NCBI GenBank assembly: GCA_022820805.1
Contig: JAJEEV010000007.1
Span: forward strand, 1 to 64,000
Direction: 5' to 3'
DNA from: Acidimicrobiia bacterium
GTDB taxonomy: Bacteria > Actinomycetota > Acidimicrobiia > Acidimicrobiales > Aldehydirespiratoraceae
DNA: 64,000 bases
Positions 11,657-51,880 of the stretch are shown here, in pieces. Position 1 is the stretch's first letter. Every line of letters starts with the position of its first letter. The notes beneath the pieces were generated by a model. That model ran no database searches, had not been told where the DNA came from, and was given only the letters and a program-made list of their open reading frames with translations. Position numbers and translations under genes: made by a program.

Positions 11657-11752
11657 GGAGGTGTCTGAGCGCCTGGTGGGCTCCCCCGCCTTCAAAGCGG
11701 GTGGGACGGGCGATCCCCGTCCGGCGGGTTCGATTCCCGTCCACCTCCGCCA
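11657..11752 (+). tRNA. selC: Selenocysteine tRNA (anticodon TCA)
   Basis: A 96-nt tRNA with an encoded CCA. The acceptor GGAGGTG pairs with CACCTCC, the D-arm has GAGC/GCTC, and the anticodon stem CCCGC/GCGGG holds the loop CTTCAAA with TCA at 11692-11694. A long variable arm (GGACGGG, loop CGAT, CCCGTCC) and a T-loop TTCGATT follow. The long variable arm and UCA anticodon identify tRNA-Sec, which inserts selenocysteine at UGA. This supports the two readthrough genes at 30011 and 31569. SelA, SelB and SelD are not in the window. Confidence 0.95.
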
Positions 11753-30010: not shown

Positions 30011-30745
30011 TCAGCCGGCGAGGCCGAGCACGTCGACGAGGCTCTCCAGCGCGGCCACGGCGGGCGCGCCGGGCTCGTGGTCGACCGGCGACACCCCGAG
30101 GCGGTCGGCCGCATCGACCGCTGGATCATCGGGGACCACCACCAGCGTCCGGTCGCCGAAGGCCTCCCGGATACGGGCCCGGTCGCCGTCGTCGCTGACC
30201 TTGTTGGCGACCACCACCACACGGCCCTGCCGCTGCTCCTCAGCGACGGCCACGGCCCGATGGGCCACGTCGATCGAACGCAGCGTCGGCTCCACCACGA
30301 CTACGGTCGCGTCCGCCGATTGGCTGGCCAGCCGGGTCAGGGTGCCGATCCCAGCCTCAAGGTCGGCCACGACGGTGGTGGACTCGTCATTCACGGAGCC
30401 GAGCAACTGCTCGGCGGACAGCCCGCATCAAGGTCAACCGGGCTCAGGATTCTCGATGCGGGTGATCACCGAGAGGCGCACCCCGTCGGGGGCGTCGGCG
30501 CCATAGAGGTCGAGGATGTCTTCCCAGGTCGGGGCATGGTCGGCCGCGCCCTCGTCGACCTCCTCGCGCAAGGTCACGAGCCGCTCGGTCTCGGTGTCGC
30601 CGACTCCCAGCGACAGGCCGAGGTTGGGGTTGGTGTCGCAGTCGAGGGCCACCACCCGGGCGCCCCGCCGGCCCAGCGTGCGGGCCAGCACCGCGCTGGT
30701 GGTGGTCTTGCCCGCTCCGCCCTTGCCGACGACGGCGATCTTCAC
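30011..30745 (-). CDS. CooC-type nickel-handling ATPase with a Sec-x-Sec motif (two in-frame UGA codons)
   Basis: A MinD/CooC-family P-loop ATPase of 244 residues if two UGA codons (30436-30434 and 30430-30428) are read as selenocysteine. It has the deviant Walker A GKGGAGKTTT, ALDCDTNPNLGLSLG, and the downstream VVADLEAGIGTLTR and VVVVANKVSDD motifs. The UGAs give Gly-Sec104-Pro-Sec106-Cys. The paralogue at 40127 has Cys103-Thr-Cys105 and that at 45582 has Cys105-Met-Cys107; in CooC1 this CxC pair binds nickel at the dimer interface. The frame is unbroken on both sides, and a perfect hairpin lies 12 nt after the second UGA. The start GTG has AGGAGG upstream and overlaps the preceding stop (GTGA). 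Ordinary calling would split it into two pieces. A role in nickel insertion for the hydrogenase is inferred. Confidence 0.85.
30398..30415 (-). promoter_or_regulatory. Putative bacterial SECIS hairpin of the CooC-type gene
   Basis: In the mRNA sense, GCCGAGC, the loop AGTT and GCTCGGC form a perfect 7-bp stem. It begins 12 nt after the second UGA and 18 nt after the first. Bacterial SECIS elements are short hairpins just 3' of the UGA with a G-U in the loop, as here. One hairpin may serve both UGA codons. Confidence 0.65.
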
Positions 30746-31542
30746 TGCGCCACCTCCTCGCTGAGACCATAGAGCGACACGACATGGTCGACCAAGCCAT
30801 CCACGGACCGGGCCAGCGCGCCTTGCGGAGCGGAGTCCAGCGGGGCGGCGCCGCGGCGGTCGGCCCTCCCGGCAGCGCTGTCGTGGGGGACGGCTGCGGC
30901 GGCCTCCAGGCCCAGACGCTCCGAGACCCGTGCCGCGTCGGAGCCGTTGCGGGCCTTGTTGACGACCAGCACGAGGCGAGCCGGCCCCCACTTCGCCCCG
31001 GAGAGGGTCAGCAGGCGCTTGGCGGTGTGCATCGACTTGACGGTCGGCTCGACCACCACGCACACGGTGTCGGCGTACTTGGCCCAGCCGAACATGGCCT
31101 GACGGGTGCCGCCGGGCAGGTCGCCGACCAGGTGCCACGCGTCCCGGTCGAGTTCGGCGACCACCTGGCTCCAGGCGTGCTGGGCCTGCTGGAGCCGCAC
31201 CACCGGGCCCCAGAGGTTCCCGAACTGGAGGTAGCGGACACCGTCGGGACACGGCGCCGTGTACCGGTCCACGATGTCATCGGCATCCAGATCCGGCCGC
31301 AGCACCCAGCGGGGCCCTCCCTCGGGCCCGGGGACCACCACGTCGTCGGGGATGGGATGGTCGTCCACCCCCACCCCCAGCGAGTAGGGCAGCCCCGGCA
31401 TCGGGTCGGAGTCGAGCGCCAGCACCGGCTGACCGCGGCGGGCCAGCAGCCGGGCGAAGGTGCCCGCGATGGTCGACTTGCCCGCGCCCCCCTTGCCGAC
31501 GAAAGCCACCCGGATCATCGACGTCGGCGTTGTTGCGGCCAT
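30742..31542 (-). CDS. MinD/CooC-like P-loop ATPase without the CxC pair
   Basis: A 266-residue ATPase of the ParA/MinD/CooC superfamily with deviant Walker A FVGKGGAGKSTIAG, the LALDSDPMPGLPYSLG segment, LVGDLPGGTRQAMFGW and VLVVNKARNG. Unlike its three paralogues in this window it has no Cys/Sec pair in the central loop. It may pair with the Sec-containing ATPase whose start overlaps its stop. It lies 26 bp downstream of the DsrE-like selenoprotein gene. The start is ATG 31542, or ATG 31518 just before the first strand. It could deliver metal, or control assembly of the metal site; its partner is not shown by sequence. Confidence 0.8.
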   Translation of the reverse strand: MAATTPTSMIRVAFVGKGGAGKSTIAGTFARLLARRGQPVLALDSDPMPGLPYSLGVGVDDHPIPDDVVVPGPEGGPRWVLRPDLDADDIVDRYTAPCPDGVRYLQFGNLWGPVVRLQQAQHAWSQVVAELDRDAWHLVGDLPGGTRQAMFGWAKYADTVCVVVEPTVKSMHTAKRLLTLSGAKWGPARLVLVVNKARNGSDAARVSERLGLEAAAAVPHDSAAGRADRRGAAPLDSAPQGALARSVDGLVDHVVSLYGLSEEVAQ

Positions 31543-31568: not shown

Positions 31569-31943
31569 TCAGCCTCCGACGAAGACCAGCTCCGACGTGC
31601 CGTCAGCAACCTCGGTCAGGATCTCGCCCAGGAAGCGGAAGGACGCGCCGACACCGGCCGCTTCGGTCGCAGACACCCCACGGGCGTCACTGGAGTGCGG
31701 TCAAAACGACACCGCGAAGGGCGCATCCGAACCGGCGGCCACCCTCTGGCGCACGTCCCGCCCCATCTCGGTGTCGGGGATTACGTCCAGATCGGCGACC
31801 GAGACCGCCGCGCCGGCCAGGCGGACCTCCGCCTCCAGCCCGGCCGAGCTGGCGACGGTAGCGAAGTGATACGCCCGGAACACCGCATCGATGTCGGTGC
31901 GAGGATCGGCCGTCGTGAAGAAGATCAGTTTGCGCCGCGTCAT
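31569..31943 (-). CDS. DsrE-family selenoprotein (one in-frame UGA)
   Basis: A DsrE/DsrF-like protein of 124 residues if the UGA at 31703-31701 is read as selenocysteine (residue 81). The first 80 residues give KLIFFTTADP, the AYHFATVASSAGLEAEVRLAG segment and SDAPFAVSF. After the UGA the same frame continues PHSSDARGVSATEAAGVG and ends ELVFVGG, the usual last strand of the fold, then stops with TGA at 31569. Stopping at the UGA would lose that strand and leave a 158-bp gap; readthrough leaves 26 bp to the next gene. The ATG overlaps the preceding ABC-transporter stop. DsrE proteins handle sulfur on a Cys; here the reactive residue may be Sec. The precise substrate is unknown. Confidence 0.82.
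31674..31697 (-). promoter_or_regulatory. Putative SECIS hairpin of the DsrE-like gene
   Basis: In the mRNA sense, CACTCCA pairs with TGGGGTG (7 bp, one U-G pair) around a 10-nt loop that begins with GU. The stem begins 3 nt after the UGA. This is closer than in the E. coli fdhF element, so it is a weaker case than the hairpin at 30398. Confidence 0.45.
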
Positions 31944-34702
31944 CGTCCGCTCCTCTCGATGGCTGCAATGTCTATCGCCGCGTCCCGGTGGTCCGACACC
32001 TGGCCCCGAACCGCGGCCTCGATCAGAGCCTGGGTCTCAGCGTGCTCGGGTGCCGTCAGCAGCCGCTCGGCGGGACCGTCCTCGACGACGCGGCCGTCGC
32101 AGAGCACCACGATCCGGTCGGCCACCAGCCGTGCGAGGGAGATGTCGTGGGTGATGAACACCAGCGTGGCTCCCAGCGTCTCACGGACGGCGAGCAGGTG
32201 CGCGGCCACTGTCGCCCGCAGGGACGCGTCGAGCATGGACGCGGGCTCATCGGCCACGATGAGTTCAGGGCTTGCGACCAGCGTCCGGGCCAGGGCGACC
32301 CGCTGGCGCTGGCCGCCGCTGAGCGTGCCGGGATGGCGGTTCACGAACCCGTCCACGGGCACCAGGCCCAGCAGCTGCAGCGCATCGGCGATCCGGGATG
32401 AGCGCTCCTGTCTGCCCATGCCCTGAATGGCGAGGGGCTCGCCCACCAGCCCGGCAACCGTCATGTTCGGATGCAGTGACTCGTACGGGTCCTGGAACAC
32501 CATCTGGACTCGCCGCCTCAGCGCGCTCAGCCGGTTTCTCGAAAGCTCAGCGGTGCCCTCGCCCAGCAGTTCGACCGAACCCGAGGTCGGCCTGGCCAGT
32601 CCCAGCGCCAGTCTTGCGATGGTGGACTTGCCGGCCGCGCTCCTGCCGATGATGGCGACGGACTGGCCGACACCGATCTCCAGGGACACGCCGTCGAGCG
32701 CGGTCACGTCGGGCTGCCCGCGGCGCCGGCCGGGGTAGACCACCCGCACACCGTCCAGCCGCAAGGCGATCTGGTCCGCTCCGGTTGCGGAACTCGACGA
32801 AGCGTCCGGCGAGGGCGCCGCGGCGTTACCGGCATCCGGGCGATCATCGCGGCTCGAGCCGACCGGAGCGTGGTGGCAGGCCACCATCACACCCTCCACG
32901 GGACGCTCCGCCGGCACCACGCTGTCGCAGTCGCCGCGCCGGTGAGGGCACCGGGGGGCGAAGGCGCAGCCAGGCGGGAGTTCGCTGGGGTCGGGGACGT
33001 CGCCCGGCACCGGCCTCAGGCTCACGGTGGTCGCCCGCAGCGACGGGAACGCGTCCAGCAGCATCGACGTGTAGGGATGCTGGGGACGGCTGATCACGAC
33101 TCGGGCCGGGCCGGACTCCACCACCCTCCCGCCGTACATGACGACGAGGTCGTCGGCACGGGACGCCACCAACCGCAGGTCGTGGGAGATCAGCCACAGG
33201 TCGAAGTCGAGTCTCCGGCGCAGGTCGTCGAGGAGGTCCAGGATCGCCTGCTGGGTGACCACGTCGAGGCCCGTCGTCGGCTCGTCGGCGATGAGCAGTT
33301 GGGGCCGGTTGGCCACCGCCATGGCGATCACCGCCCGCTGGCGCTGGCCGCCGCTCAGTTCGTGGGGGAAGGCTCGGTGGCGATCGGGGGGCAGCCCGAC
33401 TTCGGACAGGAGGTCGCCGGCCCGCTCCGCGGCCACCCCGGCTGCCGTTGCCAGCGACGCTGACTCCGCCACCTGGTCCAGCACCGTCATGGTGGGATCG
33501 AGCACGCTCATGGCCGCCTGGGGGACGATCGCCACGTCCCGGCCCCGGATCTTCTCCAGGCCGAGCCTCCCGAGCCTGCGCAGGTCGACGTCGCCCAGCA
33601 TCACGGCCTCAGCGCGGATGACCCCGGGATGGGGCACGAGGCCCGGCACCGACAGGCCGAGCGTCGACTTGCCCGACCCCGATTCGCCGACGAGGCCCAG
33701 CACCCTTCCACGCCCGACTCGCACGTCGGCCTCCCGCACCACTGAGACGCCGTCGAAGTCCACGGACAGGGCCCGCACGTCAAGGCGAACCTCCGGTGGA
33801 CACGCAGCGGGGACCGCCTCGGCCAGCCGCCGCCGGCTCGGCGGCCTCCAGCCGTGCCCGCTCAACTGGGGATCGGCCATCTCCTCGAAGGCGAATCCCA
33901 CGAAGGCCAGGCCGACGATGAGGATCGTCAGGGCAATCCCGGGCGGGACGATCCACCACAGCCATGCGTCGGTGAGGATGGCGCTCCCGTTGTTGGCGAA
34001 GTACAGCGTCGAGCCCCAACTGATGCGGCCCGGGTCGCCCAGCCCCAGGAACGCCACCCCCGACTGCACGATGACCGCGACCGCAGCGGCCCGAACGAAC
34101 TGCGACACCAGCAGCGGAACGAGGCGCCACAGAATGTGGACGACCATTATCCGCACCGGGTTCGCTCCCATCGCCAGGGCCGCCTCGGTGTGGCCGAACT
34201 CTCTAATCTTGAGGACCTGGCCGCGCAGCAGGCGGGCGGGCCGCGCCCACAGCACCCCGGCGATCAGCACGATCAGCACGTCGAGCCCGCGGCCGAAGTA
34301 GGCGGCCAGAACCAGGACCAGCACCAGGAACGGGAGCGACAGGGTCAGGTCGACGATCCTCATGATCACGGCGTCCACCCAGCGGAGGTACCAGCCCGCC
34401 ACCAGCGCGGCCGCGGTTCCCAGCACGGTGGCGACCACAGCCGCCACCAGGCCCACCCAGAGCGAGACCCGGGCGCCGAACACCAGCTGGGACCAGAGGT
34501 CCCGTCCGAGGTCGTCGGTGCCCAGCAGGTGATCGGACGACGGGGCCTCATACGGTGAGCCGGTGGAACGATCGGGCGGATGCACGGTCAGCAGGTCGGC
34601 GAACACGGCCGCGCCCAGCACCAGCACCAGCATCAGGAATCCGGCGGCGGCCAGCACCCTCGTGCTGGGCCGGATCTGGGCCCGGTACCTGTTCACGCTC
34701 AT
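31940..34702 (-). CDS. Peptide/nickel-type ABC transporter: permease fused to two ATPase domains
   Basis: One 920-residue chain holds three subunits that are normally separate. Residues 1-300 are a DppC/NikC-type permease (GTDDLGRDLWSQLVFGAR, ALAMGANPVRI, and five to six membrane helices). A first ATPase follows (GLVGESGSGKSTLG, ELSGGQRQRAVIA, LLIADEPTTGLD) with the Cys-rich end typical of Opp/Dpp/Nik ATPases (GCAFAPRCPHRRGDC). A second ATPase completes it (IIGRSAAGKSTIAR, TLSGGQRQRVALA, LIVADEPASMLD). It overlaps the permease gene before it and the DsrE-like gene after it by 4 nt each. Nickel as substrate is inferred from the hydrogenase and CooC context; peptide transport is the alternative. 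Confidence 0.85.
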   Translation of the reverse strand: MSVNRYRAQIRPSTRVLAAAGFLMLVLVLGAAVFADLLTVHPPDRSTGSPYEAPSSDHLLGTDDLGRDLWSQLVFGARVSLWVGLVAAVVATVLGTAAALVAGWYLRWVDAVIMRIVDLTLSLPFLVLVLVLAAYFGRGLDVLIVLIAGVLWARPARLLRGQVLKIREFGHTEAALAMGANPVRIMVVHILWRLVPLLVSQFVRAAAVAVIVQSGVAFLGLGDPGRISWGSTLYFANNGSAILTDAWLWWIVPPGIALTILIVGLAFVGFAFEEMADPQLSGHGWRPPSRRRLAEAVPAACPPEVRLDVRALSVDFDGVSVVREADVRVGRGRVLGLVGESGSGKSTLGLSVPGLVPHPGVIRAEAVMLGDVDLRRLGRLGLEKIRGRDVAIVPQAAMSVLDPTMTVLDQVAESASLATAAGVAAERAGDLLSEVGLPPDRHRAFPHELSGGQRQRAVIAMAVANRPQLLIADEPTTGLDVVTQQAILDLLDDLRRRLDFDLWLISHDLRLVASRADDLVVMYGGRVVESGPARVVISRPQHPYTSMLLDAFPSLRATTVSLRPVPGDVPDPSELPPGCAFAPRCPHRRGDCDSVVPAERPVEGVMVACHHAPVGSSRDDRPDAGNAAAPSPDASSSSATGADQIALRLDGVRVVYPGRRRGQPDVTALDGVSLEIGVGQSVAIIGRSAAGKSTIARLALGLARPTSGSVELLGEGTAELSRNRLSALRRRVQMVFQDPYESLHPNMTVAGLVGEPLAIQGMGRQERSSRIADALQLLGLVPVDGFVNRHPGTLSGGQRQRVALARTLVASPELIVADEPASMLDASLRATVAAHLLAVRETLGATLVFITHDISLARLVADRIVVLCDGRVVEDGPAERLLTAPEHAETQALIEAAVRGQVSDHRDAAIDIAAIERSGR

Positions 34703-35709
34703 CGCGAACCAGCCCGCCGAACCCGGGGATCGAGCAGCGGGTACAGCAGGTCGGCCAGCAGGTTCGCCCCGATGGCGATGAGCGACAGCAGCAGGAACAC
34801 CGCCTGCAGCACGGGGTAGTCGCGGGCTCGCACCGCGCTGAAGGCGAGGGAGCCGAGGCCCGGATACGAGAACACGCTCTCGACCACAGTCGCCGCGCCC
34901 ACCAGGGTCGAGAACCCGAGGAGGGCCACCGTCGACACCGGGACCATGGCGTTGCGGGCTGCGTGACGGCGCACACCCCTATCGGCCAGGCCCTTGGCCC
35001 GGGCCATGAAGACGTAGTCCTCGCCGAGTTCGGAGACCATGGCCGACCGGGCGACGACGAACACCGACCCCAGGCCGACGAAGGTGAGCGTGACGGCCGG
35101 CATCACCAGGCGCTTGCCGGCATCGGCGATCCAGGCCCAGCCGGTCAGCGCCTCGGGCGACACCGCCCCGTACACGGGCAGCCACTCGAGCTGGACCGAG
35201 AACACCAGCAGCAGCATCAGGCCCACGAAGAACGCCGGCAGCGCATCCACAGCCAGCACGCCGGCCAGCAGCGAGACGTCACGGCGCGAGCCTCGACGCC
35301 AGCCGGCCGCGAATCCCAGCGCGACGCCGAGGATCGTCGACACCGCGACAGCCGTGCCCACCAGCAGCAGCGACCACCAGAGCCGCTCGGCGACCACCTC
35401 CGACACCGGCCTGCCGTCGCGTACCGAGATGCCGAGGTCGCCCTGGGCCACATTGGCCAGGTAGCTGGTGAACTGCTGCCAACCGGAGCCGTCGAGGTCG
35501 AAGCGCTCCAGCATCGACTCGCGAGCCGACTCCTCGATCGTGCCCGCCTCGGGAGGCACCAGGTAGTCGACGGGATCGCCCGGGGCGAGCCGGGGCAGCG
35601 CGAAGTTGACGACCAGAGCGGCCAGGATCACGGCCGCGTACTGCGACGCCAGCCGAACCCAGCGCGACGATGTGCGATCTGCCAGCCGCCCTCGAAACGA
35701 ACCGGTCAT
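34699..35709 (-). CDS. Peptide/nickel-type ABC transporter permease (DppB/NikB-like)
   Basis: A 336-residue permease with an N-terminal membrane helix, a periplasmic domain (residues 55-110, LAPGDPVDYLVPPEAGT), five more membrane helices and the cytoplasmic loop DYVFMARAKGLADRGVRRHAARNA that docks to the ATPase. It is the partner of the permease half of the fused protein that follows. The stop and the next start share ATGA. The binding-protein gene lies 20 bp upstream. The operon order is binding protein, B permease, fused C permease-ATPases, DsrE-like, and two ATPases. Confidence 0.85.
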   Translation of the reverse strand: MTGSFRGRLADRTSSRWVRLASQYAAVILAALVVNFALPRLAPGDPVDYLVPPEAGTIEESARESMLERFDLDGSGWQQFTSYLANVAQGDLGISVRDGRPVSEVVAERLWWSLLLVGTAVAVSTILGVALGFAAGWRRGSRRDVSLLAGVLAVDALPAFFVGLMLLLVFSVQLEWLPVYGAVSPEALTGWAWIADAGKRLVMPAVTLTFVGLGSVFVVARSAMVSELGEDYVFMARAKGLADRGVRRHAARNAMVPVSTVALLGFSTLVGAATVVESVFSYPGLGSLAFSAVRARDYPVLQAVFLLLSLIAIGANLLADLLYPLLDPRVRRAGSR

Positions 35710-35729
35710 CGGGAGAGCGTCAGCCGGAG

Positions 35730-37739
35730 TTAATCCTCAACCGTGCCCTCACGGCCGCGGCGGCGGACGACGACGAACGCTGCCACCGCGGCGGCAACGA
35801 TCACCAGGACCACCACGAACGTGACCGCACCGCCGGACCCGCCGTCGTCGGCGTCGGCGTCGCCGTCGACCTCGGCAGCCTCCTCGGGAGCAGGCGCGGC
35901 CGTCCCCGCGTCGTCGCTCGCGGTCCCGCCGTCCGTCGAGGCGGTGCTCGGGGCGTCTGCATCTCCGGCGTCGGTGCTCGAGGCGTCAGCGCCCTCAGGG
36001 GCGGAGTCCTCGGTTACAGCCTCCTCCGGCGCGGGCTCCGAGTCGGCAGCCTCGGAGTCCTCCCCGGATTCAGGCTCGGATGCGACCGGCTCCTCGGCGG
36101 ACTCCTCAGCCACAGCCGAGCCCGCGGCATAGGGCGCGAGGAATGACCGCTTGGTGAACACGCCGTGTCCGGGGTCGCTGATCCAGCCGTCGTAGACGCC
36201 AGGCCGGTATCCCCAGCGGCCGTCGGGGTAGTAGAGGACGACTGCGGGCGCTTCGGCGGCGAATATCTCCTGGGCCTGCCCGATCAGCGTGAGCTTCTCG
36301 TCGATCGGCGCGTCCAGAGCGTCCTCAAGCACCGCGTCGAAGTCGGGGTTGGCGTAGCCGCTGAAGATGCCGCCCACACCCCGGCCGGGGCTGTGGAAGA
36401 AGAAGAACAGATGGTCCGGGTCGGCGTGGGCGTGGGACTCGAACACCGCGATGAACATCTCGACCGTCGGCGGACCGTCGGGGCCCGGACGGCGGGCGGC
36501 CGTGATCGCGGGAGCATCGAGGGGCTCGACCGTGATGTCCACACCGATGGCCGACAACTGCTCGGCCACCAGCTCCCCGGATCGGATCTGGGGCGGCGCG
36601 GCCGCGTTGACCAGCAGCGTGAACGCCAGCGGCGCGCCGTCGGCGCTGCGGCGCACGCCCCCGTCGCCCAGCGGGTAGCCGGCCTCGTCGAGCATCGCGC
36701 CGGCGGCGCCGGCGTCGAACTGGTGCCCGCCGACCGGGTGGGCCCAGGGCGAGTCGGGGTGGGTCCACGTGTCGTTGCCGGGCCTCCCCAGCCCGCCCTC
36801 GACGATGTCGACTATCGCCTGCACGTCGAGAGCCATGCTCATGGCCTTGCGCACGGCGGGGTCTCGCAGGATCGGCTTGCGGGTGTTGAACATCAGGTAC
36901 AGGGACTGCATGCGGCTGCCGGTGATCACCGAGAGCTCCTCGTTCTCCTGCACCCGCGGCACCAGCGGCGCCGGCAGGTTGCGGGTCACGAAGTCGAGCT
37001 CGCCGGTCTGGAGCCCCGCGAAGGCGGCCTGCGCGTCCCTGACGACCGGCATGATCAGCCTGTCGACCAGGGGCGGGCCCAGGAAGTAGTCGGGGTTGGC
37101 TTCAAGGCGGTAGGACACGCCCGGGTCGTAGTCGACCATCATGTAAGGACCGGTGCCGACGGGGAGCGAGGTGGCGTCGGCGCGGGGATCGGTGACACCC
37201 TCCCAGACGTGCTTGGGAAGGATCGGGATGTCCCCGCCGGGGAGCAGCTTGAAGGTCGTGACCGGGTCCTGGAAGGTGAGCTGGACGGTGGCATCGTCGA
37301 TCACCGACGCCGACTCGAACACCGGGTGGTCGTAGACGTGGTGCCCGTAGCGTCCGGGCCCACCGTCGGCCGCGAAGTACTCGAAGGTGAAGGCCACATC
37401 GGCGGCGGTGAACGGCGTGCCGTCGTGCCAGCGGACGTCCTCGCGCACGGTGACCGTCCAGGTGCGGAAGTCCTCGGACGGCTCCGCGCCGGTGGCCAGC
37501 CACGGCTCGGGGTCGAGGCGGCTCTGCGACCAGAACAAGGTGTCGTACACCAGCATCGTGAAGTCGTGGGTCAGCGGCAGCGCCTGGGGAACGATGAACG
37601 GGTTGAGGTTCTTCTCAGCCGCGTGCAGACCCACCCGGACCACGACCTCCTCGTCGTCTTGGGCAGCCGCGAGCGGCGCCAGGGCGACACCGAGAAATGC
37701 CAGGATGAGAGCGAGAATGGTGATTCGATGGCGAAGCAT
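35730..37739 (-). CDS. Family 5 solute-binding protein with C-terminal membrane anchor
   Basis: Extracytoplasmic binding protein of the Opp/Dpp/Nik class. It has a signal peptide (residues 1-25, ending PLAAAQDDEE) and an SBP_bac_5 domain to about residue 530 (FRTWTVTVREDVRWHDG is the family hallmark). An acidic Ser/Ala-rich spacer of about 100 residues follows, then a membrane helix (VTFVVVLVIVAAAVAAFVVV) and a basic end. Most Gram-positive homologues are lipoproteins; this one is held by its C-terminus. It heads the transporter operon 44 bp from operator C. Nickel or a nickel chelate is the likely ligand from context only. The start is ATG 37739; ATG 37799 would add 20 residues. Confidence 0.8.
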   Translation of the reverse strand: MLRHRITILALILAFLGVALAPLAAAQDDEEVVVRVGLHAAEKNLNPFIVPQALPLTHDFTMLVYDTLFWSQSRLDPEPWLATGAEPSEDFRTWTVTVREDVRWHDGTPFTAADVAFTFEYFAADGGPGRYGHHVYDHPVFESASVIDDATVQLTFQDPVTTFKLLPGGDIPILPKHVWEGVTDPRADATSLPVGTGPYMMVDYDPGVSYRLEANPDYFLGPPLVDRLIMPVVRDAQAAFAGLQTGELDFVTRNLPAPLVPRVQENEELSVITGSRMQSLYLMFNTRKPILRDPAVRKAMSMALDVQAIVDIVEGGLGRPGNDTWTHPDSPWAHPVGGHQFDAGAAGAMLDEAGYPLGDGGVRRSADGAPLAFTLLVNAAAPPQIRSGELVAEQLSAIGVDITVEPLDAPAITAARRPGPDGPPTVEMFIAVFESHAHADPDHLFFFFHSPGRGVGGIFSGYANPDFDAVLEDALDAPIDEKLTLIGQAQEIFAAEAPAVVLYYPDGRWGYRPGVYDGWISDPGHGVFTKRSFLAPYAAGSAVAEESAEEPVASEPESGEDSEAADSEPAPEEAVTEDSAPEGADASSTDAGDADAPSTASTDGGTASDDAGTAAPAPEEAAEVDGDADADDGGSGGAVTFVVVLVIVAAAVAAFVVVRRRGREGTVED

Positions 37740-37822: not shown

Positions 37823-40084
37823 ATGCGACGCCGTCGCCTGCGGATAGCCGGCACCGTCCAGGGCGTGGGGTTCCGGCCCCACTTGCACCGGCTGGCCCGC
37901 AGCCTGTCGTTGACGGGTGCCGCTGGCAATGACGACGACGGCGTCTGGTGCGAGATCCAGGGTCTCCAACTCGACCTGGACTCGTTCGAGGCGCGAGTGG
38001 TCTCTGAGGCTCCGCCGCTGGCCCGGGTGGACTCGGTTCGCTCCACCGCCATGCCCGCCGTCGAGGGCGAGCAGGGGTTCGCGCTCGCGGCCAGCGAAAC
38101 CGGTTCGGGCACGGTCGCCGGAACCGTTCCCCCCGACGTCGCCGCCTGTGAGGCCTGCCGCGCCGATGTCGCCGATCCAGCGGGTCGCCGCTACCGGTAC
38201 GCCTTCACCTGCTGCACCGACTGCGGCCCCCGCTTCACAGTGGTGCGGAGCCTGCCCTACGACCGCGAGCGCACCTCGATGTCGGCCTTCGAGCTCTGCA
38301 AGGCCTGCGAGGCCGAGTACCTGGACCCTGCCGACCGCCGCCATCACGCGCAAGCGGTGTGCTGTGACGCCTGCGGGCCGGCGCTGTCGCTGGAGACGAC
38401 GCTCGGGGAAGCCGTCGACGGTGACCCGGTCGAAGCAGCCGCCGACCTGCTGGGGGCGGGCGGCATCGTCGCCGTCAAGGGCGTCGGGGGCTACCAGCTG
38501 GCGTGCCGGGCCGATGACGGCGCCGCGGTGGCCCGGCTGCGGCATCGGAAGCACCGCGAGGAGAAGCCGTTCGCCCTGCTGGTCGACTCGGTCGAGGCGG
38601 CCCGGGCTCTTGTCGAGCTGGACGACCTGGCCTGCCGTGTCCTGAGCGGACCGGAGGCGCCCATCGTGCTGGCGCCCCGACGGGCCTCGGCCCCGATCGC
38701 CGCCGGAGTGGCGCCCGACACTCGCCTTCTGGGCGTGATGCTCCCGGCCACACCCCTGCACGCGCTGCTGGTCGAGGCGGTGGGCGCGACGCTGGTGTGC
38801 ACCAGCGGCAACCGCTCCGACGAGCCCATCGTCACCGACGACGCCCGCGTTCAACCTGACTTGGGCGACATCGCCGACGCGGTCCTGGTCCACAACCGGA
38901 GGATCGAGCGCCGAGCCGACGACTCGGTGGGCCATGTCGTGCACGGCGGCTTCCAGCTGCTGCGGCGGGCGCGGGGCTACGCGCCGGGCGCGGTGCGGCT
39001 CGACCGCGGCGGCCCGCCCGTGCTGGCGGTGGGCGCCGAGCTCAAGAGCACGGTCTGCCTGGCCCTGGGGGCCGACGCCCACATGTCGGTGCACCTCGGC
39101 GACCTCGAGCATCCGGCCGCTCTGGCCGCCTTCGAGGCCGCGGTCGCCGACCTGCTGGAGCTGACCCGGACCGCTCCGGAGCTGGTGGTGCACGACCGGC
39201 ATCCCGAGTACCTGTCGACCAAGTTCGCGGCCAGCGTCGACCTCGCGCCCCGGCTGGGCGTGCAGCACCACCACGCCCACCTGGCCTCCTGCCTGGCCGA
39301 CGCGGGCTTCCGGGGCCCAGCCATCGGTGTGATGTTCGACGGGATGGGCTGGGGCGCCGACGGCACCCTGTGGGGCGGCGAGATCCTCGTGGGCGACGCC
39401 GGCGGCTACGAGCGCGTCGCCCACCTGCGTCCGGCACCCATGCCGGGGGGCAGCGCCGCGGTGCGCCAGCCGTGGCGCATGGCGCTGGCCCATCTGCACG
39501 AGACGTTCGGCAGGGACCTGCCCGCCCTCGCCTGCGTGACCGACCACATCGAGGACGCTCCGCGGGTGCTGGACCAGTGCCGTCCGGGCCAGTCGATGCT
39601 CACCACCTCGATGGGCCGGTTGTTCGACTCGGTGTCAGCCCTCTGCGGCCTCGTCGAGACGGCGACCTACGAGGGGCAGGCCGCCATCCGGCTGGAGCAG
39701 GCCGCGGGGCCCGACGTCAGGCGTTACCCAGTCGAGATCAGCGCGGGCACGCCGGCCGTGATCGAGTTCTCCGCCGTTGTGGAAGCCGTGGTGTCGGACC
39801 TGCTGGCCGGGCGTCAGCCATCACAGGTCTCAGCGGCACTCCACCGGTGGGTCGCCGACGTGACCGTCGCTGCGTGCCATCAGATCCGGGAGGTGACCGG
39901 CCTGTCGACGGTGGCCCTGTCGGGCGGCGTCTTCCAGAATCGCCTTCTGGTTGAGCTGCTCCTCCCCGAGCTGGAGCAGTCCGGTTTCGAGGTCCTCCGC
40001 CACCGCCAGGTCCCACCCAACGACGGCGGCATCGCGCTCGGCCAGGCGGCGGTGGGACGGGCCATGCTGGCCGGCCGCGGCTAG
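37823..40084 (+). CDS. hypF: Carbamoyltransferase HypF
   Basis: Activates carbamoyl phosphate and transfers the carbamoyl group to the C-terminal Cys of HypE, the first step in making the CN ligands of the NiFe site. The 753-residue product has an N-terminal acylphosphatase domain (RRLRIAGTVQGVGFRPHLHRLA), paired zinc-finger motifs (CEACRADV..., CTDCGPRFT, CKACEAEY, CCDACGPAL), a YrdC-like domain (GGIVAVKGVGGYQLACRA) and a Kae1-like C-terminal domain with HHHAH and LSGGVFQNRLL. The length is normal. The ATG 37823 follows operator C. It is 42 bp upstream of a CooC-type gene on the same strand. Confidence 0.95.
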   Translation: MRRRRLRIAGTVQGVGFRPHLHRLARSLSLTGAAGNDDDGVWCEIQGLQLDLDSFEARVVSEAPPLARVDSVRSTAMPAVEGEQGFALAASETGSGTVAGTVPPDVAACEACRADVADPAGRRYRYAFTCCTDCGPRFTVVRSLPYDRERTSMSAFELCKACEAEYLDPADRRHHAQAVCCDACGPALSLETTLGEAVDGDPVEAAADLLGAGGIVAVKGVGGYQLACRADDGAAVARLRHRKHREEKPFALLVDSVEAARALVELDDLACRVLSGPEAPIVLAPRRASAPIAAGVAPDTRLLGVMLPATPLHALLVEAVGATLVCTSGNRSDEPIVTDDARVQPDLGDIADAVLVHNRRIERRADDSVGHVVHGGFQLLRRARGYAPGAVRLDRGGPPVLAVGAELKSTVCLALGADAHMSVHLGDLEHPAALAAFEAAVADLLELTRTAPELVVHDRHPEYLSTKFAASVDLAPRLGVQHHHAHLASCLADAGFRGPAIGVMFDGMGWGADGTLWGGEILVGDAGGYERVAHLRPAPMPGGSAAVRQPWRMALAHLHETFGRDLPALACVTDHIEDAPRVLDQCRPGQSMLTTSMGRLFDSVSALCGLVETATYEGQAAIRLEQAAGPDVRRYPVEISAGTPAVIEFSAVVEAVVSDLLAGRQPSQVSAALHRWVADVTVAACHQIREVTGLSTVALSGGVFQNRLLVELLLPELEQSGFEVLRHRQVPPNDGGIALGQAAVGRAMLAGRG

Positions 40085-40126: not shown

Positions 40127-40891
40127 ATGAAGATCGGGGTAGTGGGCAAGGGCGGCGTGGGCAAGACCACGCTCAGCGCGCTGCTGGCCCGGTCGCTTGC
40201 CGAGCGCGGCCGCCGGGTACTGGCCGTGGACACCGACTCCAACCCCAACCTGGGGCTGTCGCTGGGACTCGACCCCGCCGCGACCGAGGCCCTTCCGACG
40301 GTGCCGAGGTCGATCATCGTCGGCACCCGGGGCGACCTGACCGTCGGCGAGCTGATGGCCGACTACGCAGCCGCGACCCCTTCGGGCGTGACCGTGATGT
40401 CGGCGTTGCGGGTGACCGAGGCTGCCGCCGGATGCACCTGCGGCGGTCACGCCACCGTGCGGAGCCTGCTGGGCGAGGCCCTCGATACCGAGACCGACGA
40501 CACCATCGTCGACATGGAGGCGGGCATCGAGCATCTCAGCCGCTCCGGTGGGACACTGGCCCACGCCGATGTGCTGGTCCTGGTCATGGAGCCCAGCCTC
40601 AAGGCGGTCATCACCGCCCGGCGCACGATCGCCCTGGCCCGAGAGCTGGGCATCGGCGCATGGGTCGGCGCAGGCAACAAGGTGAGCGATGACCAGAGGG
40701 ACCTCCTGGCCCGCCTGTGCGCCGACCACGACGTGCCCCTCGATGTGGTGGTTCCGGCTAGCCAACAGGTCGTCGACTCCGACCGGACGGGCATCCCGCT
40801 CGAGCGCGCCCAGGCCACCAGCGTCTGGAGCGCGGTCGAGTCCCTGACGGATCGGGTCCTCGAAACCGCCAGCGTTCCGGCACCCCGGTAG
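40127..40891 (+). CDS. CooC-type ATPase with CxC pair
   Basis: A 254-residue ATPase of the CooC/MinD family with Walker A GKGGVGKTTLSALLA, the AVDTDSNPNLGLSLGLDP segment, the metal-binding pair Cys103-Thr-Cys105 in AAGCTCGGHATV, TIVDMEAGIEHLSR and GNKVSDDQRD. CooC proteins insert nickel into carbon monoxide dehydrogenase. No CODH gene is in this window, so a role with the NiFe hydrogenase, perhaps replacing HypA/HypB, is inferred. It shares many sequence blocks with the Sec-containing paralogue at 30011 and is the best reference for reading that gene. It lies downstream of hypF in one operon. Confidence 0.85.
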   Translation: MKIGVVGKGGVGKTTLSALLARSLAERGRRVLAVDTDSNPNLGLSLGLDPAATEALPTVPRSIIVGTRGDLTVGELMADYAAATPSGVTVMSALRVTEAAAGCTCGGHATVRSLLGEALDTETDDTIVDMEAGIEHLSRSGGTLAHADVLVLVMEPSLKAVITARRTIALARELGIGAWVGAGNKVSDDQRDLLARLCADHDVPLDVVVPASQQVVDSDRTGIPLERAQATSVWSAVESLTDRVLETASVPAPR

Positions 40892-42051: not shown

Positions 42052-43143
42052 TCAGCAGATCCGGGGCAGCGGATCGCCGACCAGCATGTCGACGATCCTC
42101 GTTCCTCCGAAGCCGGTGCGCACCAGCACCAGGCCCGGGTGCTCGGTGGTCACGGCGCCCACCACGCAGGCCTCGGCGCCGGCCTCGCAGCTCCGCATGG
42201 CCTGCACCGCGGCCTCGGCGTCCTCGGCGGGAACCACCGCCAGCATCTTGCCCTCGTTGGCGATGTACAGGGGGTCGAGCCCCAGCAGCTCGCAGGCTCC
42301 CGCCACCGCGCCCCGCACCGGCAGCGCGCTCTCGTCGAGTTCCACGCCTAGCCCGCAGGCCGAAGCCAGTTCGTTGCAGGCCGACGCCACCCCTCCCCGG
42401 GTCGGGTCCCGCAGCCAGCGGGTGGCCGGCACCGCATCCAGCAGGGCCGTCACCAGCTCGTGCAGCGGCGCGGTGTCCGACGCCACGTCGGCGGCCAGGG
42501 CCAGGTCGCCGCGGGCCACCATCACCGCCACCCCGTGATCACCGATCATGCCCGACAGGACCAGCGCGTCGGTGGGCCGCACAGCCGCCGCATCGAGGGC
42601 CGAGCCCTCCCTCACGAAGCCGATCCCGGTGGTGGTGATGTAGCAGCCGTCGGCCGCGCCCCGCTCGACCACCTTGGTGTCGCCGGTGACGATGTCGACG
42701 CCGGCTGCCGCGGCGGCCCGGGCCACGTCGTCCACGATGGTTCGCAGCTCCTCCACCTCCAGCCCCTCCTCGAGCACCAGCGACACGGTCAGCGCTTCGG
42801 GCTCGGCTCCCACGGCGGCCAGGTCGTTGATGGTGCCGTTGACGGCCAGATCACCGATGGAGCCGCCGTTGAAGCGCCGCGGCGTCACCACGAAGGCATC
42901 GGTTGTGACGGCCAGACGCCGGCCGTCACCGGCCTCGAGCACGGCACCGTCGTCGAGAGCGTCGAGCACCGGGTTGGAGAACGCCGGGCGGATGACGGCC
43001 TCGATCAGCGACTGGCTGGCCCTGCCGCCGGCCCCGTGGGCCATGGTGATGGTCTCGTCGGTGAGCCGGGGAGCCCGCCGCCGCCAAGACTCGACCCGGG
43101 CCAGCACCGCCTGGCGGGCCTCAAAGTCGTCCTCAGGCGCCAT
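42052..43143 (-). CDS. hypE: Hydrogenase maturation protein HypE
   Basis: Dehydrates the carbamoyl group received from HypF to a thiocyanate on its C-terminal Cys, then passes cyanide to iron on HypCD. The 363-residue product has the PurM-like start MAHGAGGRASQSLI, the ATP-site segment VTTDAFVVTPRRFNGGSIGD, and ends PLPRIC with the essential terminal Cys. The ATG overlaps the hypD stop (ATGA at 43143). It is the last gene of the minus-strand operon that begins at 47957. Confidence 0.95.
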   Translation of the reverse strand: MAPEDDFEARQAVLARVESWRRRAPRLTDETITMAHGAGGRASQSLIEAVIRPAFSNPVLDALDDGAVLEAGDGRRLAVTTDAFVVTPRRFNGGSIGDLAVNGTINDLAAVGAEPEALTVSLVLEEGLEVEELRTIVDDVARAAAAAGVDIVTGDTKVVERGAADGCYITTTGIGFVREGSALDAAAVRPTDALVLSGMIGDHGVAVMVARGDLALAADVASDTAPLHELVTALLDAVPATRWLRDPTRGGVASACNELASACGLGVELDESALPVRGAVAGACELLGLDPLYIANEGKMLAVVPAEDAEAAVQAMRSCEAGAEACVVGAVTTEHPGLVLVRTGFGGTRIVDMLVGDPLPRIC

Positions 43144-44270
43144 CAAGTCGCGTGGACCGGGATGCGCGACCGGCTCGAGTACCGCCCGTAGTTGTAGTAG
43201 GCCGCGCAGGCGCCCTCCGAGGAGACCATGCAGGTGCCGATCGGCGTCTCCGGCGTGCAGGCCGTGCCGAAGACCTTGCACTCCCACGGCCGCAGCGCTC
43301 CCTTGAGGACCTCCCCGCACTGGCAGGCCTTGGGGTCGGCTACCCGCACACCGGGAACCTCGTAGCGCAGCTCGGCGTCCCACGCAGCGAACTCCGGCGC
43401 GATGGCCAGGGCGCTCTGGGCGATGAACCCCAGGCCCCGCCACTCGAAGTGGGGCCTCACCACGAAGGTCTCCCGAAGCAGCGCCAGCGCCCGGGCGTTG
43501 CCGTCGCCGGATACGACCCGCTTGTACTGGTTCTCCACCTCGCAGCGCCCCTCGGACAGCTGGCGCAGCAGCATCAGGACCGACTGCAGGATGTCGACCG
43601 GCTCGAAGCCGGCCGTGACCAGGGGCCGGCCGTACTGCTCGGGCACGAACCGGTACGGGCTGGTGCCGATGACCGTCGAGACGTGCCCGGGTCCCAGGAA
43701 GCCGTCGAGGTCGAGCCCGGGCGAGTCGAGGATGGCCTTGAGCGGCGGGACGATGGTGACGTGATTGCAGAACACGCTGAAGTTGTCGACCCTGCGCTCG
43801 CGAGCCTGAAGGAGAGTGACCGCGGTAGACGGCGCGGTGGTCTCGAACCCGACCGCGAGGAACACGACCTGGCGATCCGGCTCCCGCTCCGCGAGGGCCA
43901 GCGCGTCCAGGGGCGAGTACACGATGCGGATGTCCGCGCCGCGGGCCTTGGCCTCCAGCAGTGTGGACTCACCCCCCGGCACCCGCAGCATGTCCCCGAA
44001 GCAGCACATAGTCACCCCGTCGGCGCAGGCGACCGCGATGGCGTCGTCGACCCGGCCCATCGGGATGACGCACACCGGGCACCCCGGACCGTGGATGAGC
44101 TCGATGCTGTCTGGCAGCAGGGCCTCGATGCCGTGCCGGTAGATCGCGTGGGTGTGGCCCCCGCAGACCTCCATGAACTTGCGCCGCGGCTGGTCGCCGG
44201 CCGCACCGGAGATGTCGGCCAGCAGACGCCGGGCCGCTTCGGGGTCGCGGAACTCGTCGACGTATCTCAC
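43143..44270 (-). CDS. hypD: Hydrogenase maturation protein HypD
   Basis: The iron-sulfur protein on which, with HypC, the Fe(CN)2CO group is built. It has 375 residues. Conserved motifs are EVCGGHTH, HGPGCPVCVIPMG, GFETTAPSTA, FCNHVTIVPP and CQCGEVLKGALRPWEC with Cys ligands of the [4Fe-4S] cluster. The GTG at 44270 overlaps the stop of the SIS-domain gene (GTGA). The operon order here is hypC, SIS, hypD, hypE. Confidence 0.95.
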   Translation of the reverse strand: MRYVDEFRDPEAARRLLADISGAAGDQPRRKFMEVCGGHTHAIYRHGIEALLPDSIELIHGPGCPVCVIPMGRVDDAIAVACADGVTMCCFGDMLRVPGGESTLLEAKARGADIRIVYSPLDALALAEREPDRQVVFLAVGFETTAPSTAVTLLQARERRVDNFSVFCNHVTIVPPLKAILDSPGLDLDGFLGPGHVSTVIGTSPYRFVPEQYGRPLVTAGFEPVDILQSVLMLLRQLSEGRCEVENQYKRVVSGDGNARALALLRETFVVRPHFEWRGLGFIAQSALAIAPEFAAWDAELRYEVPGVRVADPKACQCGEVLKGALRPWECKVFGTACTPETPIGTCMVSSEGACAAYYNYGRYSSRSRIPVHAT

Positions 44271-45316
44271 CGGGTGCCCTCCGTCGCCCGATCGGTGGCC
44301 GCGAGCGGACCGGCGACCCGCTCGCAGAGCGCGCTCATCAGCGCCGCCTGGGCCTCCTGGATCCGGTGCACCGACATCGACTGTACGACGAGGCTGTGAT
44401 GCACGCTCGCGTGGCCCGCGAACGACCCGCCCCCGTAACCGCTGAGCCCGACGGTCGTCATGCCCGTTCCCGCCGCCCGGTCGAACGCGGTGAGCAGGTT
44501 CCGGGAGGCGCCGCTGGTGCTGCAACCCACCAGCACGTCGCCGGGCTGACCGAAGGCGTCGAGCTGACGGGAGAAGATCCGCTCGGCGCCGAGATCGTTG
44601 GCCAGCGCAGTGGCCACCGCATAGTCGGTCGAGAGCGACTCGGCCGCAATGCCGCTGCGGCGCAGAAGCCGGGCCAGGCGGGCGGCGTCGGTGGCGCTGC
44701 CGCCGTTTCCCATGGTCAGCACACGGCCGCCGGAATGAGCCGCCCGGCCTATGGCCGTGGCGACGTGCTCGAGCGCGCCGCGGTTGGACTCCAGCGACTG
44801 CTGGGCCAGCCCGTCGGACTCGTCCCGCTTGGCCTCCGCCGACGCCCCGAGCGCCTCGCGCAGCGAGACCTCGTCGTCCTCGGACGCGTCCAGGAACGGG
44901 TACAGGAACCCTGTCGAGTCCCCTCCGGCGGCGCCGGCGTTGCCGACCAGGCCGGGATGCTCGAGCGCGACCTGGACCAGCTCCCACAGCAGGTGGTAGC
45001 TCAACACGACGGCCGCGTCGGGCTGGTCGGCTGCAATGAACAGGTCCGCGTCCAGCACGGCACCCTCGGCGGCACCGGCCTCGCCGATGACCAGCCTGGC
45101 ATCGGTCGAGGCGGCCGCTTCACCGGGATCAGCGACGACCGCAGCCAACGGCCGGGTGCCGGCCACGACCGGGTGGACGAACTCCACCGCGACATGGTGT
45201 GCGTGGTCCGGTGCATCGGGCGCCCACACGCGCAGTCGCCTCCCGGCGGTGAAGGCGCGGGCCAGCCACATCGCGGCCTCCACCGGGTCGCGGCCACAGT
45301 CGATGGACGCGATCAT
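44267..45316 (-). CDS. SIS-domain protein in the hyp operon
   Basis: A 349-residue protein of two parts. The C-terminal 200 residues are a GmhA-like SIS domain (VLTMGNGGSATDAARLARLL, LVGCSTSGASRNLL, TVGLSGYGGG), the fold of sugar-phosphate isomerases. The N-terminal 145 residues (MIASIDCGRDPVEAAMWLAR, then LDADLFIAADQPDAAVVLSYHLLWELVQ) look like a second, degenerate SIS-like domain or a partner of it. It lies between hypC and hypD with overlaps at both ends, so a link to hydrogenase assembly is likely. SIS genes also occur in other actinobacterial uptake-hydrogenase clusters. The reaction is unknown. Confidence 0.75.
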   Translation of the reverse strand: MIASIDCGRDPVEAAMWLARAFTAGRRLRVWAPDAPDHAHHVAVEFVHPVVAGTRPLAAVVADPGEAAASTDARLVIGEAGAAEGAVLDADLFIAADQPDAAVVLSYHLLWELVQVALEHPGLVGNAGAAGGDSTGFLYPFLDASEDDEVSLREALGASAEAKRDESDGLAQQSLESNRGALEHVATAIGRAAHSGGRVLTMGNGGSATDAARLARLLRRSGIAAESLSTDYAVATALANDLGAERIFSRQLDAFGQPGDVLVGCSTSGASRNLLTAFDRAAGTGMTTVGLSGYGGGSFAGHASVHHSLVVQSMSVHRIQEAQAALMSALCERVAGPLAATDRATEGTR

Positions 45317-45582
45317 GGCAGGTCGCTGCTGAAGGCCTCGAACTCCTCGTCGTACACCGAGCCCAGCTCGCGCATGAACGCCAGCGTCTCGGCCGCCTCG
45401 GCCGCGTCGATCCTCGACATCGCGAACCCGACGTGCAGCAGCACCCAGTCGCCGACGGCCAGCGGCTCGTCGTCGACCATGATCGTGTTGACCTCCCGTT
45501 GCGCGCCCTCCACGTCCACGATGGCCGTGTGCTCGCCCGACGGCCGCAACTCCACCACCTGAGCAGGAATGCCCACGCACAT
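45313..45582 (-). CDS. hypC: Hydrogenase maturation chaperone HypC
   Basis: An 89-residue chaperone that carries the iron-ligand unit with HypD and delivers it to the large subunit. It begins MCVGIPAQVVEL; the Cys after the initiator Met is the functional residue and must be exposed by Met removal. VDVEGAQREVNTIMV and VGDWVLLHVGFAMSRID complete the OB-fold. The start overlaps the preceding ATPase stop and the stop overlaps the SIS start, so the operon is tightly coupled. Confidence 0.95.
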   Translation of the reverse strand: MCVGIPAQVVELRPSGEHTAIVDVEGAQREVNTIMVDDEPLAVGDWVLLHVGFAMSRIDAAEAAETLAFMRELGSVYDEEFEAFSSDLP

Positions 45583-46427
45583 CAGACGCCGGCCTCCGCT
45601 CGGGTGACGCCTGATCCGGACGGGGCCCCGGCAGCCTGGCGCCCGCCGTTGAATGGGCGCGCCGGGGCATCGGCCGGCACCACGGGGACAAGACTCCCGA
45701 ACAGGGCGCCCACGGCGGCGACGAGACCGTCGTCGGGACGGTGGTCGAGCAGGGGCGCCGAAGCGGCGTCGGCGTCCATGACGGCCTCGGACCACGGGAG
45801 CACGCCGACCAGGTCGAGCCCGTGCCGGGCGCAGAACTCCTCGATGGCATCGGCGTCCGAGGACTGCCGGCACTTGTTGGCCACCACCGCCACCCGCCCG
45901 ATGGAGGTCTCCGCCGCCAGCGAAGCCTGAAGGCGGGCCGCCTCCAGCGACCGGTAGTAGGGCTCGACGACCAGCAGCAGCAGGTCTGCGTGCCTGGCCG
46001 TCCCCCGGCTCAGGTGCTCCGGGGACGCTTCGAGGTCGAGCACCGTGACCGTGCTCTCGGCCTCGGCCAGGTCAGCCAGCAGCGCGCTCACCGTGGCGTG
46101 GGCGGAGCACATGCAGCCCTCGTCGGCGTGCTGGGGCATCCCCATCCGCACCAGACTCACCCCGTCGGGCGCTCTCGCGGCATGGTCCCGGAGGACCTCG
46201 TCGACCGGAACGGCCAGGCGCGGGCCCTCGAAGCGGCGCGACACCAGCGACGGCGGCAGCGACCGCGGCACCGCGGCGGCATCGACCCCGATGGCTGCGT
46301 GCAGGTTGGGGTTGGTGTCGCCGTCCACGGCCACCACCCTCACCCCCGACCGGGCCATCAACCGGGCCCCGGTCGCACAGATCGTGGTCTTGCCCGCGCC
46401 GCCCTTGCCCGCGACCGCGATCCTCAT
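45582..46427 (-). CDS. CooC-type ATPase with CxC pair
   Basis: A 281-residue member of the CooC/MinD family: Walker A GKGGAGKTTICATGA, AVDGDTNPNLHAAIG, the pair Cys105-Met-Cys107 in DEGCMCSAHATV, VLDLEASPEHLSRG, and VAVVANKCRQ. It has an extra Pro/Gly-rich tail of about 35 residues. The overlap with hypC downstream and with the PadR gene upstream ties it to hydrogenase maturation. Its Cys pair aligns with Sec104/Sec106 of the ATPase at 30011. Nickel insertion into the large subunit is the favoured role, by analogy with CooC. Confidence 0.85.
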   Translation of the reverse strand: MRIAVAGKGGAGKTTICATGARLMARSGVRVVAVDGDTNPNLHAAIGVDAAAVPRSLPPSLVSRRFEGPRLAVPVDEVLRDHAARAPDGVSLVRMGMPQHADEGCMCSAHATVSALLADLAEAESTVTVLDLEASPEHLSRGTARHADLLLLVVEPYYRSLEAARLQASLAAETSIGRVAVVANKCRQSSDADAIEEFCARHGLDLVGVLPWSEAVMDADAASAPLLDHRPDDGLVAAVGALFGSLVPVVPADAPARPFNGGRQAAGAPSGSGVTRAEAGV

Positions 46428-47700: not shown

Positions 47701-47702
47701 CG

Positions 47703-49292: not shown

Positions 49293-49297
49293 GGACT

Positions 49298-51855: not shown

Positions 51856-51880
51856 GTCGTCTTGGCGCTAGGACGTAAGC

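Follow-up and report, generated by a model that had tools for sequence, protein, structure and literature searches.

The closest described relative of the protein presented here is CooC1 of Carboxydothermus hydrogenoformans (PDB 3KJE-3KJI), an ATPase with a deviant Walker A motif that serves Ni-CODH. According to the available text of PMC6006190, CooC1 is a dimer of like chains, with zinc bound between them by two cysteines from each monomer; nickel is bound too, and the crystals held zinc at the Cys pair. For [NiFe]-hydrogenases the usual nickel donors are HypA and HypB, and ATP-using forms of HypB exist, such as the ATPase-type HypB of Thermococcus kodakarensis (PMC12134894, PMC9164220). These nickel-supplying NTPases resemble the gene described below, termed gene A, by functional analogy only, gene A lying outside the HypB family TIGR00073.

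Metallochaperone-type NTPases with a Cys-rich motif, as in gene A, include the COG0523 proteins with CxCC (PMC9164220) and the CobW-related selenoprotein NF041053, which has selenocysteine (Sec, U) in UxxC (Table 1 of PMC13188914). They differ from gene A in belonging to the G3E GTPase family and not to CooC/MinD, and in having one Sec and no UxU motif. The metal-binding double selenoprotein NF041115 has two Sec in one short motif, as gene A does, but with UxxU spacing and in another family (Table 1 of PMC13188914). Finally, in the NiFeSe hydrogenases Sec is a nickel ligand in hydrogen metabolism (PMC13188914), whereas here it is predicted in a maturation ATPase and the hydrogenase large subunit has Cys only.

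Table 1 of PMC13188914 (2026), a paper that states 119 families, lists no CooC, MinD or ParA selenoprotein and no UxU motif; its nearest entries are the CobW-related UxxC protein and the UxC motifs of a Cu/Zn efflux family and a thioredoxin-like protein. The available texts of PMC13188914, PMC9312934 and PMC12013277 contain no CooC. The view of a preliminary description of this locus that no CooC selenoprotein has been described agrees with the literature matches listed, a scope that lies outside most subscription papers.

The reading frame and its relation to CooC1

The window, the whole stretch of 64,000 nucleotides that was analysed, contains a minus-strand frame that runs from GTG 30745 to TGA 30011 and has in-frame stops at codons 104, 106 and 245 only, the last being the real stop. 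Translation of 30745-30011(-) bore out the two in-frame UGA codons that had been described, in the order Gly-UGA-Pro-UGA-Cys (G-U-P-U-C at residues 103-107). A Shine-Dalgarno-like AGGAGG precedes the GTG start; in the sequence GTGA this start and the stop codon of paralogue B, which lies upstream, overlap. Standard annotation would probably call the gene as two fragments or a pseudogene, and a TTG-started ORF spans its downstream half (30011-30406). A scan of the window for TGA codons by codon usage and coding-like flanks picked one place only, at +59921, and not gene A, whose flanks, scored apart, reached 18.8 and 12.5.

Features of the window. Positions are those of the window; the last column gives the basis of the assignment or a remark.
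Feature	Position	Strand	Basis or remark
YqeC, selenium cofactor biosynthesis family TIGR03172	10712..11464	-	
tRNA-Sec	11657..11752	+	
Gene A (family A), CooC-type ATPase of 244 residues, UGA putatively read through as Sec104 and Sec106	30011..30745	-	translation and comparison
SECIS-like hairpin GCCGAGC-AGTT-GCTCGGC	30398..30415	-	core GAGCAGTTGCTC kept in UGA rows
UGA codon 106	30428..30430	-	aligns with CooC1 Cys114
UGA codon 104	30434..30436	-	aligns with CooC1 Cys112
CooC-like paralogue B, no CxC pair	30742..31518	-	stop overlaps GTG of gene A
Nickel/peptide-type ABC importer genes	31940..37739	-	
Importer, fused permease-ATPase-ATPase	31940..34702	-	
Importer, permease	34699..35631	-	
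Importer, SBP	35730..37739	-	
hypF	37823..40084	+	
CooC-like paralogue C	40127..40891	+	Cys103-x-Cys105
hypE, hypD, SIS-domain gene, hypC	42052..45558	-	
CooC-like paralogue D	45582..46427	-	Cys105-x-Cys107
[NiFe]-hydrogenase small and large subunit	48057..51190	+	
Hydrogenase maturation proteases and NifU-domain protein	51310..53462	+	proteases 51310-51855, 52950-53462; NifU-domain protein 51881-52453

The protein of gene A carries the deviant Walker A motif GKGGAGKTT at residues 7-15 (family pattern GKGGxGKT), and the general MinD/CbiA families were found for it in Pfam and NCBIfam. No NCBIfam model was over its cut-off and none was a selenoprotein model; HypB (TIGR00073) is absent from the 18 NCBIfam families matched at E values up to 0.001. 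Its best PDB match is CooC1, with an E value of 5e-15 for the single sequence and 9e-26 for a profile of 36 rows. The Walker A motif and this similarity place gene A among the CooC/MinD-type P-loop ATPases. The CooC1 match puts sites 104 and 106 on Cys112 and Cys114, as had been claimed when the UGAs were said to fall on metal-binding cysteines, and the position of the pair is occupied by Cys in part of the orthologues and by UGA in the window gene. The CxC pairs at 103/105 of paralogue C and 105/107 of paralogue D are likewise as first reported. What sets gene A apart from CooC1 is Sec-x-Sec in place of Cys-x-Cys, and an extra Cys107 that is kept in all 36 aligned family A rows. An AlphaFold model built from the 36 rows has a mean pLDDT of 86.8 and a pTM of 0.89, with the metal loop at low confidence.

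Predicted selenocysteine decoding at codons 104 and 106

Since gene A with exactly two TGA codons is found in 18/61 genomes, the one of the window included, at 60-99% identity, the UGA pair is not due to chance. A nineteenth genome (G013) has matches to paralogues only. In public genomes 38 loci were found, 24 of them with UGA at both sites (UU), five with Cys-x-Sec (CU), eight with Cys-x-Cys (CC) and one an end fragment; because L069 and L041 are two pieces of one MAG, L069 stands outside the three classes. The window together with 37 loci thus comprises 25 UU, 5 CU and 8 CC rows. Judging by the record titles, the loci presumably come from actinobacterial Acidimicrobiia, Egibacteraceae, Euzebyales, Nitriliruptorales, Pseudonocardiaceae, Nocardioidaceae and others. 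When 396 genomes were drawn from the whole phylum, a further four UU, six CU and two CC rows were obtained, part of them from genomes already sampled. Cys is therefore found at either or both UGA positions of orthologues (Sec-x-Sec, Cys-x-Sec and Cys-x-Cys), the outcome that the preliminary description had said would support it. The motif of family A is PG[UC]x[UC]CG; exceptions are few, among them a row in which D replaces the first G. Among named strains, Pseudonocardia nigra is CU, and Amycolatopsis marina and Haloechinothrix halophila are CC.

In a tree of 47 rows (29 UU, 8 CU and 10 CC, L095 left out) in which the two sites were masked, site 104 needs at least seven changes and site 106 at least two, with many weak forks; the starred branches alone force two changes for each label. 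Over codons 107-183, 14 pairwise comparisons gave dN/dS values of 0.08-0.34, which means that purifying selection acts on the gene downstream of the UGAs.

An odd A-like gene (L095/L109, G236:C115) has PGUGG in place of PG[UC]P[UC]CG and adjoins a copy of B; no further island gene was matched in the 20 kb around it.

The perfect 7-bp hairpin that had been noticed 12 nt past the second UGA was confirmed (stem and loop are given in the table). Its core, GAGCAGTTGCTC, lies downstream of the UGAs in 30/30 UGA rows and in 0/8 CC rows among the window and 37 loci, and in the family A rows of the 396-genome draw the counts are 10/10 and 0/2. We applied the bSECIS limits of PMC13188914 (section 5), namely a loop of 3-9 nt, a stem of 4-16 bp, an MFE of at most -7.5, a G in the first two loop bases and a distance of 16-37 nt from the UGA. 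All 30 UGA rows fall within these limits, with MFE values of -9.5 to -14.8, an outcome in line with the bSECIS prediction that had been proposed as a check; so do two of the eight CC rows, with other pairings, and in one of the CC rows (L053) the passing hairpin sits where the conserved one does but pairs otherwise. The distance to the start of the AGUU loop is 25 nt from UGA104 and 19 nt from UGA106, or one nt less in L067, and a single hairpin may serve both UGAs.

Covariation and codon exchange were analysed in 28 of the 30 UGA rows (L041 and L067 being out) and, for the codons, in 7 of the 8 CC rows. The hairpin cells are paired in 99.5% of cases in the 28 UGA rows, versus 23.5-53.1% in slid controls; 11 cells show a two-sided change and the covariation score is 0.208. 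Each of these three values was reached by 0/500 shuffles. Five covariation measures were used in all; the remaining two, which count the pairs that show a two-sided change and the further pair types, were not above the shuffles, 352/500 of which reached them. The exchanges in the outer stem are G-C/C-G and C-G/U-A: codons 111 and 116 are exchanged together with the pairs kept, and codons 112-115 are invariant in 28/28 UGA rows and variable in the seven CC rows. The outer pairs of the predicted hairpin thus covary. An Rfam search of the gene A site at a loose threshold returned two weak, unrelated matches only, and a tblastn search of plasmids gave no match.

One could still take the UGAs for true stops or pseudogene lesions that leave a 103-residue product, or two pieces made by reinitiation. 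The TTG-started ORF would fit the second piece, and the Cys-x-Sec copy L067, which loses its frame through a single base at the hairpin's 5' edge, indicates that the gene can decay. We rejected this reading, which we regard as next to negligible, on the conservation of both UGAs in 18/61 genomes, the selection that continues beyond them and the Cys that replaces them in orthologues, and the hairpin is moreover tied to the UGA. L067 itself, which keeps the hairpin core and whose home genome has no SelB over the cut-off, may be a decaying gene or may owe its break to an error of sequencing.

The tRNA-Sec gene that had been reported was confirmed and lies inside the window. Lack of SelA, SelB and SelD had been named as a point on which the selenoprotein reading would fall; all three are present in the genome, with 377, 279 and 358 bits, respectively. 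Its SelD has one TGA, in the frame SHGAGUGCK, and UxxK is the motif given for Sec-type SelD in PMC13188914. This UGA-bearing SelD is a positive control for Sec decoding, as predicted from its frame, in the same genome.

Among the 29 home genomes of UGA genes, SelB passes its cut-off in 25 and a strong tRNA-Sec match (59 bits or more) is present in 24, so that four are without the former and five without the latter, and 28 have at least one of the two. The exception is L058, which is without SelB, tRNA-Sec and SelA, yet has a SelD that bears TGA. Incomplete MAGs are the likely cause of such absences. In G363 and G484, further home genomes of family A, SelB was below the cut-off. Five of the eight CC home genomes (L053, L055, L059, L060 and L062) have both SelB and tRNA-Sec, and the Nocardioidaceae CC home genomes (L064, L065 and L068) have no SelB, tRNA-Sec, SelA or SelD over the cut-offs. 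SelA was sought in 25/38 home genomes and SelD in 19/38.

Suppressor tRNAs that read UGA as Cys or another residue exist. Such a tRNA, in place of Sec insertion, might be suspected here, as Cys is the usual alternative at both sites. It is very improbable, however, in view of the tRNA-Sec, SelA, SelB and SelD found, SelD itself bearing a UGA, of the SECIS-like hairpin that is retained with the UGA, and of the three Nocardioidaceae home genomes, in which plain Cys codons go with the lack of Sec machinery over the cut-offs. As judged from these comparisons, Sec is almost certainly the residue at both 104 and 106.

The hydrogenase island and its CooC-like paralogues

The hydrogenase large subunit encoded in the window is nearest to HofG (5AA5), with an E value of 9e-152 (the next being 2e-49), and we take HofG to be of the group-1h type of [NiFe]-hydrogenase. 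By the similarity of its large subunit to this actinobacterial type, the hydrogenase of the island is group-1h-like. The large subunit has the motifs CGVC and CMPC, which are ordinary CxxC motifs lacking Sec; the island hydrogenase itself is therefore no NiFeSe enzyme, and a NiFeSe client of gene A was ruled out. A close hydrogenase (71% identity or more) is present in 19/61 genomes, in 18 of which the UGA gene is found as well, and the UGA gene is present in 0/42 genomes without a close hydrogenase, three of which have a distant one (42-45%). The remaining genome with a close hydrogenase is G013, which has no match for gene A. Its contig starts ~2.2 kb before paralogue C, and in the window gene A lies ~9 kb before C, so gene A may simply be unassembled in G013. 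The occurrence of homologues in hydrogenase clusters, likewise proposed as a check, was seen in 23/38 loci, where the fetched DNA contains hyp genes or genes for hydrogenase or protease.

CooS is found in 0/38 home genomes. A role in Ni-CODH maturation was therefore ruled out, and we do not file gene A as a CODH CooC. HypB is over its cut-off in only 3/38 home genomes (L046, L054 and L063), with weak GTPase-like matches in most others, and HypA in 1/38, five more having sub-cut-off matches, four of them at 70-80 bits versus the cut-off of 88. The genome of the window has no HypA match and a HypB match of 26 bits only. Because L046, L054 and L063 keep a true HypB, a replacement of HypA/HypB would not be general. 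Of the named strains, Pseudonocardia nigra DSM 104088 (L063) has both HypA and HypB above the cut-offs, and Amycolatopsis marina and Haloechinothrix halophila have neither above them. The words hypB and nickel are both absent from the available text of the Streptomyces hhySL paper.

Several other genes of the island were noted. The fused importer protein (31940-34702, minus strand) has 920 residues and comprises a permease and two Nik/Opp-type ABC ATPase domains; its matches in several relatives are separate pieces. The SIS-domain (GmhA-like) gene at 44267-45316 (minus strand) lies between hypD and hypC, and in other loci, too, it has hyp genes close by. Four small proteins, single-spanning by their appearance, are encoded at 29659-29907, 47162-47425, 47425-47700 and 47703-47957; the first three have matches near gene A in several relatives and the last has none, and the three within 47162-47957 have no Pfam match. 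A protein of 132 residues with a Cys/His-rich C-terminus (46767-47165, minus strand) is found near paralogue D in some loci (L043, L063), and proteins of this type adjoin the UxC copies in L103-L105.

The genome has four CooC-like genes (E up to 0.001), A, B, C and D, all of them within the window. Paralogue B, directly upstream of A, had been missed in the preliminary description. A match to it lies directly upstream of gene A in 36/38 loci, with none near L052, and the aligned B rows are without the Cys pair.

Other CooC-like genes have a predicted Sec at the first of the two positions. Paralogue D is joined in the tree by 13 U-x-C rows (L083-L093, L096, L097) and by L119, which is nearly identical to L092; these rows form two groups that are not resolved as one clade. 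L117 (U-T-C) lies inside the C group (support 100/99), and L116 and L118 (U-T-G) lie beside C (98/96). Sec at the first site of these other paralogues was probably gained separately. Six of the seven UxC home genomes whose surroundings were examined (L101-L104, L107 and L108) have hhyS and hhyL in the region, and the seventh has hyp genes near (L105) and hydrogenase matches on the next contig stretch (L106). L104 holds a UU gene and a UxC gene together. SelB is over the cut-off in 10/14 home genomes of UxC-type copies, the others being G478, G410 and G437, which are 75-82% complete, and G295.

In a strict scan that allowed no bulge, a model-conforming hairpin was found in 4/14 UxC rows; the odd copy L095 counts among the 14 and is without one. 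Once the distance limit was loosened to 12 nt, stems of at least 6 bp were present in 15/16 Sec rows versus 7/44 Cys rows, counts for which the rows were chosen by motif pattern, identical DNA was dropped and the stems stand at differing places. The UMC and UTG rows have the common stem GNCACG-GUY-CGUGNC with a C-G, U-G, U-A series. The hairpin is less well supported for the nine close rows that make up part of the set from family f44. L116, L117 and L118 (G045, G236), which have Sec at the first site, each have a hairpin downstream of the UGA.

A putative Sec-x-Sec site for nickel

Gene A is very probably a CooC-type ATPase of hydrogenase maturation. In the mechanism that we propose, SelB and tRNA-Sec, guided by the hairpin 12 nt past UGA106, would insert Sec at 104 and 106. 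By homology to CooC1, the protein would dimerise with nucleotide, and the Sec-x-Sec pairs of the two chains would hold a metal at their interface, a site that the conserved Cys107 might back. It would serve the group-1h-like [NiFe]-hydrogenase of the island, probably as a nickel-inserting NTPase that replaces HypA/HypB, and would act either alone or with the Cys-less partner B. A selenolate would be a softer, more acidic and more easily re-reduced nickel ligand, which may suit an aerobic hydrogen oxidiser.

The context of the island, together with the lack of HypA/HypB and Ni-CODH, is why we place a CooC-type nickel NTPase in the position of HypA/HypB, and a CooC-type ATPase that substitutes for these two is the simplest reading. 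Paralogues C or D may share the work of nickel insertion, and since three other CooC-like paralogues share the island with gene A, the one that inserts nickel may be a gene other than A. The nickel-inserting Sec-x-Sec ATPase of the preliminary description is supported by the homologues, the island, the hairpin and the Sec machinery; that nickel is the metal and that both selenols are its ligands is what we infer. Taken as a whole, a Sec-x-Sec CooC-type ATPase that inserts nickel for a group-1h-like hydrogenase appears probable, and on the more specific point we lean towards the Sec pair as the carrier of nickel.

In a genuine Sec-x-Sec ATPase the pair might instead be a redox or other-metal site, for example a reductant of an oxidised intermediate, a site for the handling of Fe(CN)2CO, or a ligand of zinc or iron. 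A redox function is ascribed to most of the prokaryotic selenoproteins known (PMC13188914), the same site held zinc in the CooC1 crystals (PMC6006190), and paralogues C and D, which keep CxC, could carry the nickel. Nevertheless, the pair falls on the nickel/zinc site of CooC1 in the alignment, the island has a Nik-type importer, and HypB and HypA are under the cut-off in 35/38 and 37/38 home genomes, respectively, and we consider a use other than nickel transfer unlikely.

A variant of the nickel-inserting reading, which is not exclusive with it, is that the Sec protein can act only when paired with B in a heterodimer, with an asymmetric two-selenol site as opposed to the four-ligand site of CooC1. 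The position of B directly upstream of A in 36/38 loci, with overlapping start codon in the window, and the lack of a Cys pair in B would be consistent with such a pairing, whereas CooC1 is a dimer of like chains (PMC6006190) and L052 has no B match near it, and we judge an obligate heterodimer rather doubtful.

On a wider scale, we tentatively entertain a joint reading, which falls somewhat short of being probable, in which a CooC-type set has replaced HypA/HypB in aerobic hydrogen-oxidising actinobacteria and nickel would pass through a diselenolate site, possibly of four selenols. Sec would then have been recruited repeatedly among the paralogues: UxU/CxU in A, UxC beside D, UxC inside C and U-x-Gly beside C. 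If this is true, a metal-transfer site would be built from selenium, and the metal site of CooC proteins would be a repeated target of selenium use. The question can be tested directly, because Sec and Cys forms alternate among the orthologues, named strains included. The finding adds a metallochaperone ATPase with a putative Sec-x-Sec motif to the selenoproteins, and suggests a nickel route without HypA/HypB for the hydrogenases of aerobic actinobacteria and a reason why selenium may be worth its cost.
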